Source: Leucosporidium creatinivorum
Lineage: Eukaryota; Basidiomycota; Microbotryomycetes; Leucosporidiales; Leucosporidiaceae
Assembly (NCBI GenBank): GCA_001600635.1
Contig: BCKL01000007.1
Coordinates: 706,303-770,302 of the forward strand
Direction of reading: 5' to 3'
DNA: 64,000 bases
This document shows positions 51,685-64,000 of the stretch, in pieces. Made by a program: the position numbers and the translations under genes. Below the pieces are notes generated by a model, which had not been told where the DNA came from, made no database searches, and saw nothing but the letters and a program-made list of their open reading frames with translations. Numbering within the stretch: the first letter of the stretch is position 1; every line of letters begins with the position of its first letter.

Positions 51685-53227
51685 TCATTCCTTCCACCTT
51701 CCATCTCTGCCCTCCTTGAAAACTCTAGGCGTTCGTCCTTTCCCCAGCGACTCGAACTGATACACTTCGACCTCGTCGTTCGCTCCCGCCCGCGAGTGAG
51801 GCTCGAACGGGGTCCTGTAAGCGAAAGTGACCAAGATCCCATGCCTAGGAAGTCCAGCACCCTTCAACGACCACTTGGTGGCGATCTCGCGAGAGATATT
51901 GGGGAAGGTGGCCGGGCCCCGGTTGGAGCGACGATGGTGGCCGACCCTGCGAGGAGCGAGCTAGTGTGAGAACAGAAAAGCGTGGACGAGTAAGGAGCTC
52001 AACCCACCTGCTGAGAAAAGTCCACACGTCGGGCGGAAAGTTTTTGAAGGGTCGCTTGCCTATGAAACAAGCGCCGAAATGAGCGCCGAAATGAGCGCCG
52101 AGATGAGCGCCGAGAACGACGAGCGGCACAGAGAGCGGCAGGACTCACCAGAGCTATCTTGAAGGTCCTTAATCTCGACCTTGATCACTCGTGTACCATT
52201 TGCTCCCCATGCTCGCCTAGTCTTGAGAGCCAGACGGTCCGGCAGCATGTGGAGGGGGACAATCTCTCCCGGTGCTCCTGTTGTAAGCGACGCAAGGGTG
52301 ACGTTGATCCAGATACCGTCCCCCTTCGCTAAGACTTCTTGAATGTCGTCTTGTGCATGGTCCCGCCCAGCGCCTCCCTCATCTTCGACGTCCAAGGCTG
52401 CATCGCCGGGGGGAAAGGTCAGTGATCACGAAGGACAGAGGAAGACCCTGCGCGAGACTTCGACCTACATGGCGGCCTTGGGGATTCTACAGGAGAACTT
52501 AGAAATGAGTAACTTGCTCGCGAGCATATCAAAGCGAGTGCAAGGCCACTTACGAAGCTGGCCGACATCGAACGAACGAAGTTTAGTCCCTCGTAAAGTG
52601 ACACCTCGATTGTTGAGGATCTCGGGAAGTCGTCGAATCCGCATTGCAAGGTGCGGATGACTGGTCGTCGTTGGCAGTGGTGGTGGATCCGAAGCGCCTC
52701 GAAGTCGCCTGAAGAAGGAAGGCCGCCGAGGACTGAGGTTTGGAGCGGGGCCGACTGTGGTGTGTGTGGAGTGGCGGAAGTCAGCATGCTATATTGAGCA
52801 AGGAAGAAGAGAGCGAGGGTGTACCTTCGAAGACCTCGCTGCTCTGTGGGTACGGCGGAAGCTCGTCGACCACCGGCGCATCTAGTGGGTTCGGCGCTAG
52901 CATTGGCGCCGCCGCCGACGGAGCTGGTCCTGCCGTACCATCTTGAGACTCCCGACGACCATGTGACCCAGCATGGTTGTAAAAGGCGGACGGCGACTTC
53001 TCGGTGTTCCTCGTTGACGACCGAGTTGGGATGTTGAGAGCCGAACTTGAAGTGACTTGAGGTGCCGTCGTAGGGCGCGAGCGGCCTGGTGTGTTGCTTC
53101 CATCGTGGGAGTTTCGAGCTGAGATCGACGGTCGAGGAGAAGCCCAGCCCTCGAGGGCGCCCGAGTCGAAGAGGTGACGAGCGAGTCTGTCTGACTGGCC
53201 CGACCGAGCCGAGTTTGGGCGCGACAT
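51685..53227 (-). CDS. Orphan protein with disordered N-terminus, function unknown
   Basis: Six exons from ATG at 53227 (first exon to 52825) to TGA at 51685, about 390 residues. The N-terminal 135 residues are Ser/Pro/Asn-rich and disordered (MSRPNSARSGQSDRLARHLF...). An arginine-rich block, MRIRRLPEILNNRGVTLRGT, follows. An 18-nt exon (52469-52486) leads to GDGIWINVTLASLTTGAPGE, VPLHMLPDRLALKTRRAW and TRVIKVEIKDLQDSSG. The last exon encodes GLPRHGILVTFAYRTPFEP and VEVYQFESLGKGRTPRVF. The structured part is beta-strand-like. The frame is open well upstream of 53227, so a longer start is possible. Intron 52060-52148 is more than half filled by a 12-bp tandem repeat. Confidence 0.5.
52071..52118. 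repeat. Four copies of a 12-bp tandem repeat inside an intron
   Basis: Units GCGCCGAAATGA, GCGCCGAAATGA, GCGCCGAGATGA and GCGCCGAGAACG (plus-strand reading) lie head to tail. They sit within the 89-nt intron of the orphan gene at 51685-53227. On the transcribed strand each copy carries CTCGGCGC or TTCGGCGC, the motif that recurs in other introns of this window. Confidence 0.95.
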
Positions 53228-53527: not shown

Positions 53528-56132
53528 TCAGGCCTGAGGAGGCTGCTGCTGCGAACCCTTCTTCTTGGCTCGAATCTTGACAAACTTGGACAGCATCACA
53601 TCCACCTGCTTGACGACGTCCTCGCTCGTGAGCCATGCGCGGCAGTCGTCGGGACCGGCAGAAGGGTGAGCGAGCTGGAACTCGACGACGAGGCCGATGA
53701 TGGAGGCCATGGCGGGAGAGCCTTTGGTCGAGGGAAGGAGCTCGTTGATTTGCTTGCCCTGTGCGGTGGGAGAGCAAGCGAGGGACGGGCGGGCGAAGGT
53801 AGGGGGGAAGGGAGAGAAGAGGAGCGATGAAGTGAGGGCGAGGGCGAGGGCGAGGTCGAAGCGGGCAAGAAGAGGGAACGGAAGGATAGGGCAGATCAGT
53901 TGGCAAGTAGAGGTCAGCTAGAGCGACTACTCACGTCCAGCAGGGGAGCGTTGAAGGCGAGGGTCTCGAGTCGATAGCCGAGCGCTCGGTCGATGAAGCG
54001 ATTGTAGGCGGCGATGAGTGCCTCGGCTCGTGTTCGGTCTGGTAAAGGCGAGGCATATAAGTTCGTGATCTGCGAACGACGTTAAGCGAGCCGTGGACAC
54101 TCACCTGCACCAGCGTCAACGATGTCAACGACAAGACTCCAGAACAAGCTCACGTTCCACCGCGAGTGGAGCATGTCGTGCACGGAGGGGTTCCTCAGCA
54201 GTAGACCTAGATCGTGTGGGGTGAGTGAATCAGCTCCTCGTTTCCTGGCTACCGCGAGCTCGGCTCACCCATCTCTGCTCTCTCGCTCTCTCGCTCGATC
54301 GCTCCCTCTCCCGCAAGCTTCTGCACCCCCTCACTGAGAAGCATCTGCGCCTCCCTCGCTTTCCTCACCCACACCCAATCCGCCGTCGGTCCCTTGATGC
54401 CATCCCTCACGACCTTTTCGCCAATCCAAACCGTCTTCTTCTTCTCGACCACCTCGAGATCCCTCAACGGCAGCAGACCCGAGCAGAGGTAGAGTCGCTT
54501 GATAGTGGTAGGGTACACCTCGTTCAGTGCTGTCGCGGAAGGGTATGGGTCGTGGTGAGCGTCGGAGGAGTCGGAGAACGGGACGACGGTGAGTTGGAGG
54601 AGAGGGTGGAGCAGTGGTGTGGAGGTGTGGAGAAGGTCGGAGACGACTTGAGCGGCGAGAAGAGAGGTGGAGTGGTTTGGTGGTGCTGTTGGGGACGTGG
54701 GGTCGGAGACGGAGGTAACTTGCGAGGGGTCGTAGAGGAAGATGAGAGGATGGAGCTTGAGTCGGTCAATGAGCTCCATGGCGTAGAGAGGATCGCGGCC
54801 TTTGTGGCAAAGAGGCGGAGTCAGCGTCCGGGTTCGGAAGCGAAGGAGGCGACGGGCAGCCTCACCGAGCAGCATCTTCTCCAACTCCATCCCAACTCGC
54901 TCCCGACTGATCTTTTTGGGGTCCCGCAGAGCAGCCTACAGAGTGCACGAGATCAGCTTGAGAATCGGTGCGAACGCAGAGGACACCCACTCGAATCTCC
55001 TCCCTCTCGATCGCCTCAACCAGATCCTCATTCAGCACGAACTCCTTGCCGAACCGCGCTGCGAATCGTACGGCCCTCACGACCCGTAACGGATCATCAT
55101 GGAACGTCCTGAAGGGCTCTAGCGGTGTGCGAATGCGCTTCTGCTGACCGGGAACCAAGCCGAGATCGGCGAGACCCTTGCCGGTCTGGTCCTCGATTTG
55201 GCCGGTGCGGAGGTTGTAGAAGAGGGCGTTGATGGTGAGGTCACGTCGTTCGGCGTCCTCGACTGGACTTCCGAAGGCCTGTAGCGTCATTGGAGATCAG
55301 CGACGGCAATACCGGCTTCTGAGAGGGCGAGACGAACCACTGTCGGGATCCTGCTGCCCTCGGTGTAGACCTCCTGGCCACGTTGCTGCACCCAGTCGAC
55401 AGAGAGGTCGCAGACCATCGCCGTGGCCGTCTCGAGATGCTTCGACTGCTCTGGCTTGGCTTCAATCTTGGTGAGCTTGCCCATCTGCGAGGAAGAAGTG
55501 TCAACCTTAGTCGAGCAGGCTGGTGAGACTTGCACGTACCAGCTCGCGATGACCGACGGTATCGAGGTACCTCTCGAAGAGCATAGCGAACTTGAGGCCA
55601 GTAATGGGGTCGGGCGAGGTGGAGACGTCGATGTCGTCGGACTCGCGACCGAGGAGCTACAAGGAGGGGAAGCCGTGGGTCAGCAAGGGCCCGAGCAGGT
55701 AGCATAACACTACAGGTCGCCAGATCTCCGAGCTCTCCGCTGTGCTGTAGCTCCTCGACCGAGCCGAAGCCGAGAGGCGGGCTTCGCGACGAGTCGCTCG
55801 GCGTAAGCTCTCCGACTCACCTTGTCTCGTACCCAGCCTCCAGCGATCCTCAGCTCAACCTTCTCACTCCCTCTGAGCCCTCCAATCCAGTTGCCTGCCT
55901 CGTCCTTGAGCCTGAGCTTGTCGACCTCCTCTGGATGCTGGTCGACCCAGTCTGCGCACTGTACGAGCAGAGTCGCGAGTTTCTGCTCGTTGGGGTTGAG
56001 GGAGATGGTCGGCATGGAAGCTGCCATGGCGTAACAGCGGTGAAATGAGAGCTGCTGAGGAGTTGAACGAGCGAGGAGTTGACGGGGAAGGAGCGCGGTC
56101 GTGTGTCGTAAGAAGCGTAGGCCTGGCAGCAT
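53528..56132 (-). CDS. CCA1: CCA-adding enzyme (tRNA nucleotidyltransferase)
   Basis: About ten exons. TGA is at 53528. Two in-frame starts are plausible, 56132 and 56027. The catalytic head reads RIAGGWVRDKLLGRESDDID with V after it (GGxVRD and DxD motifs, split by an intron). Next come EAKPEQSKHLETATAMVCDL, RRDLTINALFYNL (RRD motif) and GLADLGLVPGQQKRIRTPLE, then DDPLRVVRAVRFAARFGKEF. The neck/body has SRERVGMELEKMLLG and RDPLYAMELIDRLKLHPLIF. The longer start adds MLPGLRFLRHTTALLPRQLL and ARSTPQQLSFHRCYA, an Arg-rich leader without acidic residues and with the look of a mitochondrial presequence. Starting at 56027 gives the cytosolic/nuclear form. Yeast CCA1 uses the same two-start strategy. 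Confidence 0.93.
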
Positions 56133-56327
56133 CAAGTGGCTGCAGCGAGCGAAGATCTGCAGGTCGTCTGGTGCGCCGGCCCTGCTGCTAAGTCGTGTCG
56201 AGTCGAGGTCAAAGTTGGTCGAGAAGCAGGTGCGGAACTCAGAAAAGGCGCGGCGCCGACGAGCTTGCTTTCGCTTCGACGTCTTCCTGCTGCTCATCTC
56301 GCTCGACTCTAGAAACCTACAGCAACC

Positions 56328-57338
56328 ATGCCTCCTCCACCTCAGATGCACGGCGCTGACGAGCAGACCATCTTCTCCAAGCGTGCGTCCCTTTTCCTCG
56401 ACCTTCTCCCCCGCGCCCGAGCTCTGCACCTCGACAATCGGTCTAAGCTCGAGCGCTCGATGGGCCCAGCGCTGCTGCAGCTTCGAGTCGAGTAGTGTGT
56501 GCTGTTCCAAGCTGCAGCATGGCTTCTGGACAGCGCAGGAGGAGCGCGGAGTGGGGAAGCTGGACTCGAGCTCGAGCTGGCAGGGTCGCAGAGAGACAGC
56601 AGGGGGGACGGGGCGTTGGTTCCGGAGGTCGGAATACTTTCTGGGAGTACGCGGGAGCTTCGTCGATGTGCTACGGGTGAGTCTCGCTTCTTTCCGCTTG
56701 CTGAGGTTCGCAGGCTGATCGCTCGCTTCTTCTACAGACCCTCGACACTATCACCCGATTCCAAACCTGTTCTGAGCGTTCCAGCTAACTATATCACGCT
56801 CGTCCATAGTCAAGATGGGAGCTACGATGGGAGGAATGGTCGGATTGACGATCGGCTTCCTCTTCGGAGGCTTTGCCATCCTTCGGTGAGCCTTCCCCGT
56901 TCACGATCCGGCTGCTCGAGTCGAGCGCATGCTGCTGGACCTACCCGCGCTGGGCTTGTCGCGGTCTCCTTGCTATCGAGCGCCGAGCTGACCTAGCCCA
57001 CCCTCTCTTCTCCCCTCCCTTGCCCTTCTTCAGCAACGGCGCTGGACCCCGCGGCTTCCTTCCTTCTCTCTCGGGCTACATGCTCTCCTCCGCCGCTACC
57101 TTTGCCTTCTTCATGTCGATCGGTGAGCGCCCTCTCCTAGATCTCGGCCGTCGCCTCGGCGCGAGCTGACCTCTCCTCACACCTTTCTACAGGTACCGTC
57201 ATCCGTACTGACGGTCTTACTATGCGCGAGTGGGCCGAGAAGGAGATCAGGGAGGGTCGAGCGATTGGAGCTGGAGGGATGGGAAGCAGCCCCGTGCTAA
57301 GGGAGTTTGAGAGGCGGAGGGCCGTCAAGGAGCAGTAG
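56328..57338 (+). CDS. MGR2: TIM23-complex subunit Mgr2 (ROMO1 family)
   Basis: Exons 56328-56382, 56810-56885, 57034-57122 and 57193-57338 sum to 121 codons plus stop. After MPPPPQMHGADEQTIFSK the ROMO1/Mgr2 domain reads KMGATMGGMVGLTIGFLFGG then FAILRNGAGPRGFLPSLSGY, and SSAATFAFFMSIGTVIRTD: two Gly-rich membrane helices with the family's GPRG turn. The hydrophilic C-terminus (EFERRRAVKEQ) exceeds the usual ROMO1 length but suits fungal Mgr2. Mgr2 gates lateral release of preproteins from TIM23 in the inner membrane. Intron 1 is 427 nt, far longer than the local norm. The start lies about 200-300 bp from the divergent CCA1 starts. Confidence 0.92.
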
Positions 57339-60132
57339 ATCTGCTGCTGCCTGAGTAACTAGTACAAGCATTCCCTCGTTAGTGGAGCTGCAGCTCGGTC
57401 GACTGGGAGACAGTGCAGCGAGGAAGTCCGAGCCTCGCCAAGTCTCCAAGTCGAGCTCGTCTCGCCCTCTCCTCTCTTTCTCTCCTGCCACATCCTTCTG
57501 GAGTGAGCCGTTGCGTGCAGCATCCTCAAGCATGGTGCTCTCGCTCTAGCGAGTGCAGGCCTCTGTAATAGGCTCTGCCACTGGATCAAGGCCCGACTCT
57601 TCCTCGCGTGAAGTGCTCGTCGACCTCCAACCTCTCTCAGCGAAGGATCGCAGCAGCAGTTGCTCCCGCTCTTGTAGCGTCGGGGAGCGATCTCACTCAC
57701 GATCCTGGGACGACCGCTTCAAGCCTCCCAACAGCTCTCGCAGCCTGCTCCTCGTTGAGCAAGCTCGAACTGATCAGAGCGCCCGAGGAGCTCGCTGTCC
57801 TTGGCCGCTCCTCAGCGATGGGAAGGCCGCTATAGACTTCCCACCCAACCCAAGCCATCCTAGTAGTGCATACCTACAGGCTGCTGCTCACACAGTAGCC
57901 TTTCGGAACGAGGAGCCGCGAGCAAGTGCTCCTCAAGCGTCGACGGGAGGCGCGCTACAAGTCCTCCCTCTCCTGCAGCTTTCGAGGCTGTGGGCTTCTC
58001 GGTGATCCCCAAGTGTACTGAAGTCTACAGGTAAGTATTCACTTCCTCGCTGGCTCGGTTGTAGTGCAGCGGAGCGCCGAGGGGAGAGGAGGAAAGGGAG
58101 AGGGAGCGCTGGAGCGTCGGAAGATGCAGCAGAGACGCTGAGCGAGCAGAAGGAGCTGTACATCAGCAGAGACTAGCTCAGATACCCTGTAGCTGAACCT
58201 CACCTGTCCTTCTATTCGCAGCGTCGTCGGTCTCTCTCCCAAGCTCGGCGCCCATTCCTTCGACAAGGCAAGTCTCTCTCGCTGCGCCCGCCACTCCCTC
58301 CTGTCCACCCCAAACGTTGGAGCTTTCAAGTACAGCCGGCTTTCAGGATGAGCTTCGAGAGCTATGGGGTTTGGGAAGGCGAGGGACGAGGTTTGCTTTC
58401 GCCGAGCCATGGGCGAGTGTTCAAATTGACGCTTCGCGCGGTGAGGCGAGCAAGCTGATGACTCCCGAGAGTCCCCAACCACGCCATCATAGCCTGCTGC
58501 TGCGTCGGGTCGCGCTCTACGCTTCGGCTGAGGGAATTGCGGAGGAGGGAGACTGGCGGGCCGTTTCTCCTTTCACCGAGCCGACATCGCTGACCTCTCA
58601 TCTCTGCCCGTGTCCTTGCTACCACGCTACTGAGAAGCTAAGAAGGGGGTATCCAAGCTCTTATTTCTATGCAGAAGGTCAGCCGGCTATCGTCTCGCTG
58701 TTCGGACGAGGAGCGCAACGCGAAGCTGCTCGCCGAGCAACGCTCTTCGCCGTCGCCCTAAGGGGGAGCTTCCGCGTCGCAGGGCAATTCATCGCAGCAT
58801 TGCGAGTACTCAAATGTATGAGTGAGGTCGCTGAGATGACTCGAGGCGTAAAGGGATGAAAGGAAGCTTGAGCCTGCGAGGGCGGTTGCTCCACTGGGCT
58901 CGGCTCGAGGGGCGAGGCCCGTACATTCGTGACAAGCAGGGTCAAGAGAGCTCTGAAGGAGCGCAAATTCCTTACAGAAGTGCTCAGTGTGTTTCTGCGA
59001 GCTGCGCGACTCGTAAGAGCAAGAGAAAGGTACTCGGCGCAGCCCAGCGGAAGGCTCGGTCGAGTCGCTCGAAGGGCTGAACTACAGATCCTAGGGTAGA
59101 CGTCATTATGTAGGGATACAGAGACTCCTCTCCCTCGAAAGCGTATGTAGCCGAGTAAGCAGGACCACAATTGACCATTAGTCTCGAGGGCTAACTCGGC
59201 GCTTACTCGGCCGAAATGCCCTGCCTCTTAAAAGACTCGACGTGTTCTGCGAGCTCTCTTTGCTTCCTCGTTCATCTCGCTCGACTCTTCGCTCTCGTCG
59301 ACACTTCTTCCTCTCTCAGAAAGACTGTCTGTTTCGTTACAGGCTCGGCTCGGGCTCGCCTCTTCACCAGCGGAGAGCTCAGAAGGAGGGAGGAGGAGCT
59401 CGAATCGCCTCCCTTCGATTCAGCACCTCGTGCCCGATGCGTTGTGTAGTGGGGTACAGCTCAACGCTGCTCCAGTCGACGTGGAGGCGGGAAGAAGACG
59501 GCCGCTTTTGGCACAGGCCCCTATCGCTCGGTGCAGAATCGATTCGGGCGAGGTGCTTTGCCCGAGCAGGATGGTGCGGAAGGAGGTCTGAAGGAATCAG
59601 TATGGTACTACATGGGCAGCTGGATGCTCTCGTAATGTAGCAGCGCCCACCCGTTCGAAGCGTCCTCGTCGTCGCCGAGGTCGAAGGGAGGGTGCTGTTG
59701 GGCTAGAAGAATGACGGAGGGTCTCATTGATTTCGTTCTCATGGCCAGCCTACCCTCCGTCACCATCCATGGCTTGCTGTGAGCCAGCTGACGAGGTGGG
59801 AGAGGACGCAGAAGAGGGGAATCGCGGACGAAAGGCTCGGTCGAAAGTGATCAGGCAGCTGTGAGGTCTGTAGGGATGCAGCTGTGCCCCTATCGACTGG
59901 TGCTTCTCCTATGGCCCAAGCTCAGCGACCAGCCAACCCTGCCTCGCCGAGCCCTAGCGGAGGACTACAAAAGGCTCTCGGAGAGGTCGCTCGTCTCTTG
60001 CCTTCCTACTTTTCACTGCTCTCTCAGCTCTACCCTCTGCGCTCCCTCCTGCTCGCCAGCACATCACTCTATACACTCCTCTCCAACTCTCACTACTACG
60101 ACCCTTCACCTCTTCCCTCCCCTCCCACCAGC
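57339..60132. other. Gene-poor region of 2.8 kb
   Basis: I find no gene here that I can support. Several open frames of 100-180 codons occur on both strands (for example 58317-58859 plus). Their translations are Arg/Ser/Ala-rich without motifs, and I could not link them into a convincing spliced model. CTGTAG/CTACAG words and GTGAGT-like sites are scattered, so an untranslated RNA or a poorly conserved gene is possible. The last 150 bases, C/T-rich, are the promoter/5' UTR of the gene at 60133. Confidence 0.4.
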
Positions 60133-61463
60133 ATGACCGTCAAGCTCCTCAAGCGGCCCGCTTCCTTCTCCAACAAGCTCCGCTCGAAGCTCGTGCGCAA
60201 GAACAAGGGCAAGGGCAAGAGCATCATCACCAGCATCTCTGCACCTGTCCTCATCTCGCAGAGTCGTTCCCCTGTAGCTGTCATGGTGAGTTTTCCTTCC
60301 TCCCGCTCTCGTCGCATTCCTCTCGCGCGCTCTCAAAATGACGAGGCTGACCCATGTCTCGCTTGTCGCACACAGATTGCCGGGCAAGACTTCATCAAGA
60401 AAAACACCTCAGACTCCTCCACGCCCGCCGAATCGCCACTCGTGGCCGAGGAGCAGCACACCCCTACCGACAACGCCGCCGAAGCCAGCGCCGAGCCGCA
60501 AGTCGAGTCGCCTACGCGTGTCGAGTCGCCTGCGCGTGTCGAGGTCTCTTCAGCCGTCGAGGTGGTCTGTGAGGGATTCAGTCAGCCGTCGAGGTGGTCT
60601 GTGAGGGATTCAGCAGCCGCGAGAACAAGGAAGAGACCTCGGCCGAGGAGCAGGAGAAGGAGGAGAAGGAGTCGAGCGCCAGCGATGGCGAGGACGCGCA
60701 CTCGGAGCACCTCTTCACTTCCTCGGACGACGACTCGGACAGCGACAGCACTCCCTCGGACTCGGAAGCTTCTTCCTCCTCTTCGCCCCCGTCCTCGCCT
60801 CCCTCAAGCCCTCGTCTCGACCTCGGCTCGCCCTTCATCGCGGAGGCCATCTCGCCCGCTCCATTCCCCAACCCTCCCATCGACCATGCAGCCCGCGCCG
60901 CTCGCACCATGCAACGCCTTCGCAGCAACCGCCCTCACATGCTTCTGGGCGAGGTCGACGAGCAGCTCAAGCAGCGGTCGCTCCGCTCGGACTACCGCCG
61001 CTCGACTCTCTCCAGCACTCCCGCTCCTCTCCCTCGCTCGCCTCTCCCCAGGGGCTCGTACACCAACAACACTCCTCGCGCTCCCGTGCGCCACGGCAGC
61101 GTCCTTCCCTCCCTCTCCTCACCTTCTCGCTTCGGCTACGACTCCTCCTCTCCCCGCCTCTCGCCCTTCCCCTCCTCTTCCGTTCGCCCTCGTCTCACCA
61201 CTCGCACCTCACCTCTCAGCACCACCATCGACGCTGTCTCAGAGGAGACCGAGGAGGAAGTCGAGGAGCACACGCCCTACAACTCGGCGCAAGACGACCG
61301 CTTCATCCACCTCGCCTCGCTTCGGTCGCCGAGGAAGGAGTTTGGCAGGAGGGAGGGCATGGAGCTCGATAGGGAGGACCTGAAGAAGATGATGGGGAAG
61401 GAGGTGGTCAGGTCGAAGGATGTGGGGGCGTGGGAGGAGGAGAAGAAGAGGGCTCGGGGCTGA
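60133..61463 (+). CDS. Serine/acidic-rich disordered protein, frame broken by a 32-bp tandem duplication
   Basis: Exon 1 is 60133-60285 (MTVKLLKRPASFSNKLRSKL, then a basic RKNKGKGK stretch) and exon 2 starts at 60376 after a GTGAGT/CACAG intron. The protein is disordered: Glu/Pro/Ser repeats (VESPTR, VESPAR), an acidic serine run (SSDDDSDSDSTPSDSEASSS), then SPRLDLGSPFIAEAISPAPF and a C-terminal conserved-looking helix YNSAQDDRFIHLASLRSPRK ending KKRARG at 61463. Between 60550 and 60613 a 32-bp unit is present twice, so the first part and the natural-looking last part are in different frames. Removing one unit would give one continuous 400-residue frame. Unspliced, the first frame runs on to 61383 with an Arg/Ser/Pro-rich translation typical of a wrong frame. 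No family recognised. Confidence 0.65.
60502..60537 (+). repeat. Two 18-bp tandem repeats coding VESPxR
   Basis: Units 60502-60519 and 60520-60537 are identical except one base (Thr versus Ala codon). They keep frame and encode the VESPTR/VESPAR pair in the disordered protein. Confidence 0.95.
60550..60613 (+). repeat. Perfect 32-bp tandem duplication in coding sequence
   Basis: 60550-60581 and 60582-60613 are identical over 32 bp. The length is not a multiple of three. Each copy contains CGAG|GTGGTC, so the segment between the two AG|GT points begins GT, ends AG and is exactly 32 nt long. Confidence 0.97.
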
Positions 61464-61868
61464 GGCAGGGGGCGAGGTTCAGACTTGGCGATGGGTGATT
61501 CTGGGCTCGTCGGCTGGGTAGTATCGTTATCAGTGGCCCGGTATCATATTGATTAGTGCTAGCATGTCGTAAAAGTATTTTCCTCATCCTTGCTCGGCTT
61601 CAGCCTGACCCAGGGAGAGCCAGAGATTGAGCGCCGAGTTCGAACGGCAGCCGACGAGAAGGCGGGTCGGTCCCTTCTCCGCCCTGACGAGCTATGACAA
61701 ACCCTGACAAGTTGTTCTGGGTCTTTCCGATCCTCGCGGTCACCTACAGCAACCCCGCTGAGCCCACTGTGGCGACCCGACATCGCCGAGCTGTGGACCT
61801 CGCTCTCCTCACTCGAAAAGGGCTACTCTCAAGAGCTCGAGAATGTGCGCCACAGCGCACACATATCG
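61464..61868. other. Intergenic region with possible extra 5' exon of the MFS pseudogene
   Basis: An open frame from 61694 (MTNPDKLFWVFPIL...) resembles neither an MFS N-terminus nor another known protein. No independent gene is supported. Confidence 0.35.
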
Positions 61869-62320
61869 ATGCAGCCTGGTCTTACGAAGTATCTTGACAC
61901 CCCTGCCTACCGCCGAGGCATGCGCAAGGTCGACATCTACGTGACTGGAGTCGTCTTGCTCCTCTACCTCTTCGCTTTTCTCGACAAGGCCAACCTCGGA
62001 AACGCAAGGGTAGCAGGACTACAGAAAGTAAGTGTTGTAGTGTTGAACTCTGAACTCCCATAGCTCCGCCGCCGCCGCTCAAGGGCGACTTGGCAGCTCG
62101 GGCTCGGCGTTGGCGCTTCTTGCTCGCTAGCGCGCTCCCTCTACAGGATCTGGGCCTCTCGTCAAAGCAGTGGTCGTTAGTACTCACTTGACTCTTCCCC
62201 ACCTACATGTTCAGCGAAGTAGGCCAGCCAATTCACTGAGCTCTAGCCGCCGAGCCGAGCCTGACCTTAGCTTCATCTCCTCCGAGATCCCCGTCAACCT
62301 CCGGCTCAAGCGTATCGGTG
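61869..62320 (+). pseudogene. Remnant of an MFS anion:cation symporter gene
   Basis: The first part reads MQPGLTKYLDTPAYRRGMRK, then VVLLLYLFAFLDKANLGNAR and VAGLQK, a clear allantoate-permease-type helix 1. After an intron it continues DLGLSSKQWSLVLT, a TGA stop (62189-62191), LFPTYMFSE, then across another intron IPVNLRLKRIG. Aligned by eye with the family pattern (DLGLxxKQxS...FFxxYxxxExPxNLxLKR), the stop sits exactly where a helix-2 residue is expected and everything around it stays collinear. After about 62320 no further transporter segments are visible, so at least two thirds of the gene is missing or unrecognisable. The local introns still look spliceable, so the decay may be recent. 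It belongs to the same family as the intact gene at 14612-16743. Confidence 0.75.
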
Positions 62321-62788
62321 TGTGGGTCCAGCCATCACTTCTGACTTGAATCGACCACTCCACGTCCTGTCACCTGAGAATCGGCAACCCTCTCGCGCAG
62401 GCGCACCCGCTCGTCGTCTCCACTCTCTCGTGCTCGGCGACCTCGGCGCTCGCTGATGTCGTCTTGCTCTCGCGAAGGGAGGTTTCCAGTGTGGCCCACT
62501 GAACAGCCTAGAGCTTTCCAAATCTCCAGCTGCCTCGGCATCCCGCGCGCTGCTGCATTACTCTCGCAGCTGGCATGCGAGAAGCCCGAGCATGCGCCTT
62601 CTCGTCCCTTCCCTCCACGCCAATCGGCCTCTACTGGCTCGACGAGCACCGTCATGAATCGTATACGAGTGTTGTTACAGTCCTAGCTCGTCCCTAGTCG
62701 ACTGCGGGGAGGTGGAAGGAAGTCGATGTAGAAAGGCGGAAGGCGAAGGAGGGGGGAAGGGGGCAAAGTGTGGCGGATCTGTAGGGTT
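62321..62788. other. Region after the MFS remnant, no gene supported
   Basis: This stretch may contain decayed downstream transporter sequence, but I cannot align any part with confidence. It also holds the 3' end of the minus-strand gene that stops at 62789. Confidence 0.35.
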
Positions 62789-63164
62789 TTAGAAGCGGTG
62801 TTTTGGTGCTGCTGCGTCGACTACAGGTGCAGTGATTCCTGCTGCTGCGTTGGCTTGCTCCTCCTGTTGTAGCGGAGCGAGTGAGGGTCAGCTTCAAGTG
62901 AGAGCGAGACGAGACGAGAGGTGAAGCGCCTACAGCCAAGTGCTTCTGCCATGCTGCTTCTCCTGCTGCCATAGTCTCGTTGTGAACGCGGTACATGCCA
63001 TACAGTCCGTCTAGAAAGAAGCAGAGAGAAAGGGAGATGAGCGAGAGCGGCGAGAGAGAGAGAGAGTTGAAAGAGTATAACGTACAGACTGACAAGCCAG
63101 CCAATCCTGATACGAGTACTCGATGAGCGATATCTGCTACTCCCAATCGTGCAATTCCTGACAT
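62789..63164 (-). CDS. Small single-pass membrane protein, possibly a COX14-like assembly factor
   Basis: Exons 63164-63086, 63010-62934 and 62863-62789 sum to 76 codons plus stop. The protein is MSGIARLGVADIAHRVLVSG, LAGLSVYGLYGMYRVHNETM, AAGEAAWQKHLAEEQANAAA and a short Ala/Pro tail ending KHRF. One central helix (VLVSGLAGLSVYGLYGMY) follows an amphipathic N-terminus with a HR pair, and a hydrophilic C-terminus follows. Size and layout match small mitochondrial inner-membrane proteins such as Cox14 (complex IV assembly), but similarity is weak and I give it only as a suggestion. Frame agreement over three exons and clean splice sites make the gene itself likely. Confidence 0.65.
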
Positions 63165-63280
63165 TGTTGAAGTGTTCAAGTGGTAATGAGGGGTAAGGAC
63201 AAGAAGTGCGTCGCCCCTTCGCCGCGCCTCTTTCCCTTCGCTCGAATTGTTACTGTTATTGAATCGACTTAGACAGAGAA

Positions 63281-64000
63281 ATGGCGAGCAATTCCACTCC
63301 TACTCGCACTACTAGCAGCAGGTGAGTCCTCCTCTTCTACCGTCCTACAGCTTGAGCTCTACTGGCCACTGACACGCAACTCTCATCTCTCCTTCGCTCC
63401 TACTCTCTCCCCCTCTACGCGCACTAGGGATGATGTCCTACAGTTTCTCGACTCTTTGGACGACTACTCGACACCTCCACCTCCTCCCACCTCATCCTCA
63501 TCTGCCACCAAACCCAAACCACCCTCAGCTTCAGCGCCCCTCGCCTCCAAACCCAGGCCTCCTCCTCCTTCTGCTACAGCTCCCGTCCCAGCAACAGCAG
63601 CAGCAGTAGCACCACCAGCACCTTCAACTACAGACGCTCAAGAAGCTCAATCCGTCCTCGACTTTCTCGACGAAATCACCCAACGCTCGGCCACCCCCAC
63701 CGCTCAAGTCAAGCCTCCTTCGGACTTGTCCAAGAAGCCTTCCGCTACTTCCATCGCAGGGCTCTCGAGGTCTTCCTCCAGGCAGAATGTAGCCGCTGCT
63801 GCTCCTCCCCCTAGGAAATCGACAGACTCGGTCCGCTCGCAGCGTAGCGTGCAGTCCTCCTCGCCCGCCGCGGGGGTCGCTCCTCCTCTTCCTACTCCCT
63901 CTCCCGCCGTCGCCGCTCCAGAACCCACCCCAGCAGCAGGTGGAGGCGGATGGGGCTGGAACTCGGTCTGGTCCCAAGCTTCCTCGGTCGTAGCCCAAGC
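63281..64000 (+). CDS. MTC1: Maintenance of telomere capping protein 1-like (partial, runs off the window)
   Basis: Exon 1 is 63281-63321 (MASNSTPTRTTSS), and exon 2 starts at 63428 and is open to the end of the window. The start reads RDDVLQFLDSLDDYSTPPPP, then a long Pro/Ala/Ser-rich linker, QSVLDFLDEITQRSATPT and, near the edge, GGGGWGWNSVWSQASSVVAQ. The paired FLDSL/FLDEITQ motifs and the GGWGW-SVW-ASSVV segment are typical of the fungal Mtc1/DUF5427 family. Yeast Mtc1 is linked genetically to telomere capping, and later to endomembrane trafficking. The C-terminal domain is outside the window. Confidence 0.82.

Follow-up and report, generated by a model that had tools for sequence, protein, structure and literature searches.

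A frame-changing 32-nt tandem duplication of intron-like form in a multigene family of Leucosporidium creatinivorum

The gene and its duplicated segment

On contig BCKL01000007.1 (C7) of the basidiomycete Leucosporidium creatinivorum (assembly GCA_001600635.1; 27.7 Mb in 63 contigs), a two-exon gene harbours a tandem duplication of 32 nucleotides (nt) in its second exon. The gene is contained in a stretch of 64,000 nt (the window; positions 706303–770302 of the forward strand of C7; guanine plus cytosine content 59 %), to which all coordinates without a contig prefix refer (Table 1). The unit TCAGCCGTCGAGGTGGTCTGTGAGGGATTCAG occurs twice, head-to-tail and in identical copies. A preliminary description of the window had reported this perfect duplication as shifting the frame of a coding exon, and had pointed to the motif CGAG/GTGGTC within the repeat (slashes mark supposed splice points here and below), by which the 32 nt between the equivalent points of the two copies begin with GT and end with AG. 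Both observations were confirmed.

An exact repeat of 32 nt is not a product of chance. Its junction shows no microhomology, since the run of matches is exactly 32, and the absence of differences between the copies dates the event only weakly, because 32 sites allow several percent divergence. A second tandem duplication (2 × 18 nt, in frame) ends 12 nt upstream of the first. Within a 260-kb sample of the genome (the window and 20 further stretches), perfect tandem duplications with units of 12–120 nt numbered 11, three of them with units of at least 20 nt, including the one described here; the other two have neither AGGT on either strand nor coding signal on both sides. Extrapolation from these three events would, very roughly, give a few hundred such duplications in the 27.7 Mb, a few dozen of them with AGGT on a given strand. 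Elsewhere in the window (52070–52113), the 12-nt unit AGCGCCGAAATG forms a tandem array of 3.7 copies.

Read with one copy of the 32-nt unit, the gene encodes 402 amino acids (aa) collinear with its close paralogues, parA and parB, and this natural frame contains no further stop and no second disabling change. With both copies, the first ~120 codons are followed by a change of frame, yielding 386 aa with a wrong tail of 266 aa. The shifted frame stays open for 264 codons versus a mean of 222 in 2000 synonymous-codon shuffles, 53 % of which were open for at least that long. Retention of both copies therefore provides no early stop for quality control, and the openness of the second frame shows no selection, because synonymous shuffling predicts it. 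A hidden overlapping gene in the long shifted frame was likewise rejected, its length being predicted by the shuffles (fraction at least as long: 0.53 for the window gene, 0.34 for parA and 0.53 for parB; n = 2000). Stops are scarce in the other shifted frame (2 seen vs. 9.1 expected in the window gene, with 0 of 2000 shuffles as low; 2 vs. 8.6 in parA; 5 vs. 8.0 in parB). That this scarcity is special to the gene was rejected as well, since 70 long open reading frames (ORFs) of the 260-kb sample, with this gene not excluded, display the same deficit in the +2 frame (345 stops vs. 674 expected from synonymous shuffling; +1 frame, 311 vs. 324), which probably reflects codon-context bias.

The identity of the two copies, the nearby 18-nt duplication and the openness of both frames across most of the exon would also suit a reversible length polymorphism, in which the 32-bp repeat expands and contracts and thereby toggles the protein tail between two frames. 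Such a polymorphism is unlikely, as the repeat comprises just two copies in the one assembly compared, and the open second frame matches the expectation from synonymous shuffling.

Table 1 Features of the duplicated gene and its surroundings (window coordinates)
Feature	Position	Strand	Remarks
4.2-kb block with the gene	57386–61613	+	Present three times on the contig, ~90 % identical
Upstream region common to the family	57417–60029	+	~79–81 % identity with five other fetched members; sixth match at C7:369949–372472
Exon 1	60133–60285	+	ATG at 60133; same structure in parA and parB
Ordinary phase-0 intron	60286–60375	+	90 nt, GTGAGT donor, CTGAC, CAG acceptor; 90 nt in parA, 89 nt in parB
Exon 2, to natural stop	60376–61463	+	Two-copy reading stops at 61381–61383
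18-nt tandem duplication	60502–60537	+	17/18 identical by eye; absent from parA and parB
5' arm of 14-bp stem (one G-T pair) enclosing the duplication	60538–60551	+	60540–60551 exactly complementary to 60630–60641
Copy 1 of 32-nt unit	60550–60581	+	First of the two head-to-tail copies
Hypothetical 32-nt GT...AG intron	60562–60593	+	Scores -1.98 (donor) and -4.03 (acceptor); lacks CTRAY/YTNAY
Copy 2 of 32-nt unit	60582–60613	+	32/32 identical to copy 1
Top-scoring of 153 frame-restoring GT...AG pairs	60601–60653	+	53 nt; cryptic, without claim to be an intron; scores 5.0 (donor) and 2.62 (acceptor); lacks a branch motif
3' arm of 14-bp stem	60630–60643	+	Pairs with 60538–60551

Paralogues and the gene family on the contig

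A search of the genome revealed two close paralogues on the same contig but on the opposite strand, parA (ATG at C7:701352) and parB (ATG at C7:805886). Both are unbroken (393 and 394 aa, respectively) and contain one copy each of the 32-nt unit. The relatives compared here are paralogues within one genome, and their single-copy state indicates that the two-copy state is derived. The 18-nt duplication is missing from parA and parB as well; the aligner merges both events into one gap of 50 nt, which was divided by us into 18 and 32 nt. Apart from the 32 nt, the exons of the three genes differ in length by multiples of three (6, 18 and 3 nt). The synonymous distance between the window copy and parA is 0.056, and the ratios of non-synonymous to synonymous change (dN/dS) for the three pairs are 0.75, 0.53 and 0.72, i.e., protein constraint is weak in all three.

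The three genes belong to a family with ten members found on C7 (the window gene and those at 183538, 266034, 318028, 368633, 433640, 498484, 591845, 701352 and 805886 of the contig), which mostly lie tens of kilobases apart; protein searches gave matches on C7 only. The family splits into group 1 (n = 3) and group 2 (n = 7), which resemble each other in exon 1 and the phase-0 intron but possess two different types of exon 2. Its proteins look low-complexity. In comparisons with Pfam, the best match to exon 2 of the window gene was CDC45 (E 0.39), which is under its cut-off, and no domain was found at E values up to 0.1 in parA and one group 2 protein. Rfam revealed no known RNA at gathering scores in window positions 55000–64000.

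Three of the ten members are frameshifted, namely the window gene, L032 (at 591845) and L043 (at 498484), with products of 386, 331 and 310 aa, respectively, if read as they stand. The frame is lost by a 4-nt tandem insertion in L032 and by gaps of 1 and 2 nt in L043; since these changes amount to 1–4 nt only, they are not introns. The other seven members look unbroken (parA, parB, L033, L034 with N positions, L035, L036, and C7:368633 as judged from the match table alone). One internal stop each at 266185 and 318028 in the match table (L033 and L036) was taken as intron read-through, because the spliced readings have none. These losses point either to a family that withstands changes of frame or to flaws in the assembly, and both possibilities undercut the reading of the 32-nt segment as an intron.

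The 2.6-kb region upstream of the gene is shared by nine of the ten members; the tenth (498484), for which only 134 nt upstream were fetched, was unlisted. As a query, this region produced at least 47 match rows, including one longer match on C6 at 76 % identity. Part of it (57447–57986) is a dispersed element of ~0.5 kb, which occurs besides C7 on C1, C2, C3, C5, C6, C8, C9, C14 and C30 with 83–89 % identity. In 11 copies, the element appears to be non-coding (in 114 of 133 gaps the length is not divisible by three) and displays blocks of near-perfect conservation, with changes on both sides in only 3 of 142 predicted pairs; it had no Rfam match. Long ORFs of the C7 gene family were recognised at none of the three places examined on C3, C6 and C1. 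Beside the gene, ~520 nt (61805–62323) are repeated in inverted orientation at C7:790752–791270 (88 % identical), and one reading of this segment resembles, by eye, the start of a membrane transporter.

Splice signals of the 32-nt segment

The preliminary description had considered the segment as a possible newborn intron. Under this proposal, 60562–60593 would be a spliceosomal intron arisen by tandem duplication of an AGGT-bearing exon segment (Rogers model), and its removal would leave the protein unchanged. AG/GT at both ends, the GT...AG form, the restored frame and the single copy in parA and parB agree with this proposal. Excision indeed restores the natural frame of 402 aa; this carries no independent weight, since the loss of one copy does so, by definition, in every tandem duplication. 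The AGGT form was also rejected as remarkable in itself, since AGGT was present after duplication of 2641 of 19963 random 32-mers (13 %) in the 260-kb sample and of 156 of 1056 in this exon (together a range of 13–15 %). Since roughly one duplication in eight of comparable length would be expected to show it in this sequence, the AGGT form alone is no evidence for an intron.

For comparison, 159 non-overlapping introns were predicted from the sequence of the 260-kb sample, selected for coding signal in the 20 codons to either side together with splice and branch motifs; lengths were confined to 20–160 nt, so that the survey is blind to introns longer than 160 nt or adjoining short exons. These introns measure 48–157 nt (5th percentile 55, median 66); this median and the branch motifs CTGAC/CTAAC are in keeping with a basidiomycete. 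With 32 nt, the candidate is outside this range, and neither CTRAY nor the looser YTNAY occurs within it, which bears out the caveats of the preliminary description that it is shorter than the local introns and lacks CTGAC. Its donor (GAG/GTGGTC) has no G at +5. Both splice scores are below the lowest of the 159 introns (donor -1.98 vs. 1.35; acceptor -4.03 vs. -1.63), a comparison that is partly circular because the selection of those introns required G at +5 and, at position -3, a pyrimidine.

Three relaxed sets were therefore considered beside the main one. Selection by branch and acceptor (n = 90) gave G at +5 in 61 introns and none below 48 nt. Among the 48 introns selected by donor and branch, the acceptors were CAG (28), TAG (8), GAG (6) and AAG (6), and with 6 of 48 the GAG acceptor alone does not exclude an intron. 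Selection by donor and acceptor without branch (n = 123) yielded a single intron below 48 nt (28 nt). Compared with all such dinucleotides of the sample, the candidate donor outscores 72 % of GTs (n = 26292) and the candidate acceptor 45 % of AGs (n = 42108), so that both sites are unremarkable. Both sites also fall within a predicted hairpin (see below).

According to PMC2809761, new introns of Drosophila have weaker splice sites than old ones, which speaks for the proposal, but new introns invisible to nonsense-mediated decay are in deficit, whereas retention of the present segment causes no early stop. With respect to length, PMC6161759 reports that predicted Arabidopsis introns of ≤30 bp were without evidence and that, of 30 tested in the range of 30–60 bp, two were verified (59 bp). 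Failing the tests of length, splice sites and branch site against the introns of this genome, the newborn-intron proposal is highly improbable. Equally slight is the chance that some splicing of the 32-nt segment occurs although it has no branch motif and is far shorter than any of the 159 surveyed introns, in which case it would be an ultra-short intron at birth with still identical parent copies.

Alternatively, the frame could be rescued in RNA by another, cryptic intron near the duplication. Among the 153 frame-restoring GT...AG pairs in this area, the 32-nt pair ranks 36th. The best pair (60601–60653) has a length in the normal range, and the scores of its donor (GTGAGG, 5.0) and acceptor (GAGCAG/G, 2.62) lie close to the 5th percentiles in the intron survey (4.51 and 2.45, respectively; n = 159). 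Yet it has no branch motif, and parA contains this donor and acceptor at an equal spacing of 53 nt (by eye), where removal would break the frame. Rescue by a cryptic intron is accordingly very hard to credit.

Origin of the duplication and comparison with known systems

The duplication is enclosed by a stem of 14 bp containing a perfect 12-nt inverted repeat, and its first two bases form the top of the 5' arm. In 40000 random placements, a likewise positioned pair of 12 nt never arose, and a pair of 11 nt or more arose in 8. The predicted DNA fold of 60535–60646 has a z score of -2.44; 3 of 200 shuffles folded equally well. With their single copy, parA and parB are predicted to form the same hairpin, the stem containing a mismatch in parA and a wobble in parB. 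Slippage or template switching during replication at this hairpin is a plausible cause of the duplication.

From the comparisons of DNA and predicted proteins, the repeat is probably a frame-changing tandem duplication of an ordinary kind and fairly recent date, in one member of a gene family that is redundant and evolves fast. The gene may now yield a near-full-length protein with a scrambled tail of 266 aa, or may be on its way to a pseudogene: its frame is lost, the paralogues keep theirs, and two group 2 members are frameshifted as well. Thus, of the possibilities raised in the preliminary description, a disabling mutation fits best, considering the intact single-copy genes parA and parB and the changes of 1–4 nt that cost two other members their frame.

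Several points weigh against this view. Since the split of the window copy from parA, 9 synonymous and 14 non-synonymous changes fall on the window branch, versus 3 and 21, respectively, on that of parA (5 further changes are ambiguous), i.e., the window copy displays no excess of amino-acid change and no additional sign of decay, which would also suit a spliced intron. The hairpin test was picked after the hairpin had been seen. Finally, each of the three frameshifts could be an assembly error; some N positions occur in the assembly, including in L034.

An assembly or sequencing artefact at the hairpin would be in line with these N positions and with the 4-nt insertion in another family member, and hairpin-forming DNA can be error-prone. 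On the other hand, a clean, exact duplication of 32 nt is atypical of base-calling errors, and the adjacent 18-nt duplication has a base difference between its copies. An artefact is therefore rather improbable.

The AGGT duplication model (Rogers 1989) and the ATP2A1 case (Hellsten et al. 2011) are used here as described in PMC4974935 and PMC3443670. In ATP2A1, in the potato RdRp gene (PMC4974935) and in SPOG_01682 and SOCG_00815 of fission yeasts (PMC3629103), an exon segment with a proto-splice site was duplicated in tandem, so that GT and AG lie at the two copies and the coding frame is kept upon splicing; the present duplication has the same arrangement. The fission yeast reports include 24-nt repeats associated with new introns, with AGGC given as proto-splice site in PMC3629103 vs. 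AGGT in PMC4974935. In potato, by contrast, branch site, tract and 3' site came from an old intron (PMC4974935). Compared with these cases, the present candidate segment lacks a branch motif, its splice sites are poor and it measures just 32 nt.

If a newborn intron were true, it would represent a rare snapshot of intron gain before divergence of the copies. The case also serves as a warning, as an AGGT tandem duplication with restored frame is expected in about one of eight duplications of this size here. The gene family, in which three of ten members lack the natural frame and are yet open, makes a better subject of study than the repeat itself.

Multigene families subject to birth-and-death evolution can acquire small duplications that shift the frame. 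As in such families, one of several similar genes has here lost its frame by a small duplication while its sisters are intact. Differing from the frameshifts of birth-and-death evolution, the shifted reading is open almost to the natural end, and the product is therefore altered rather than truncated.
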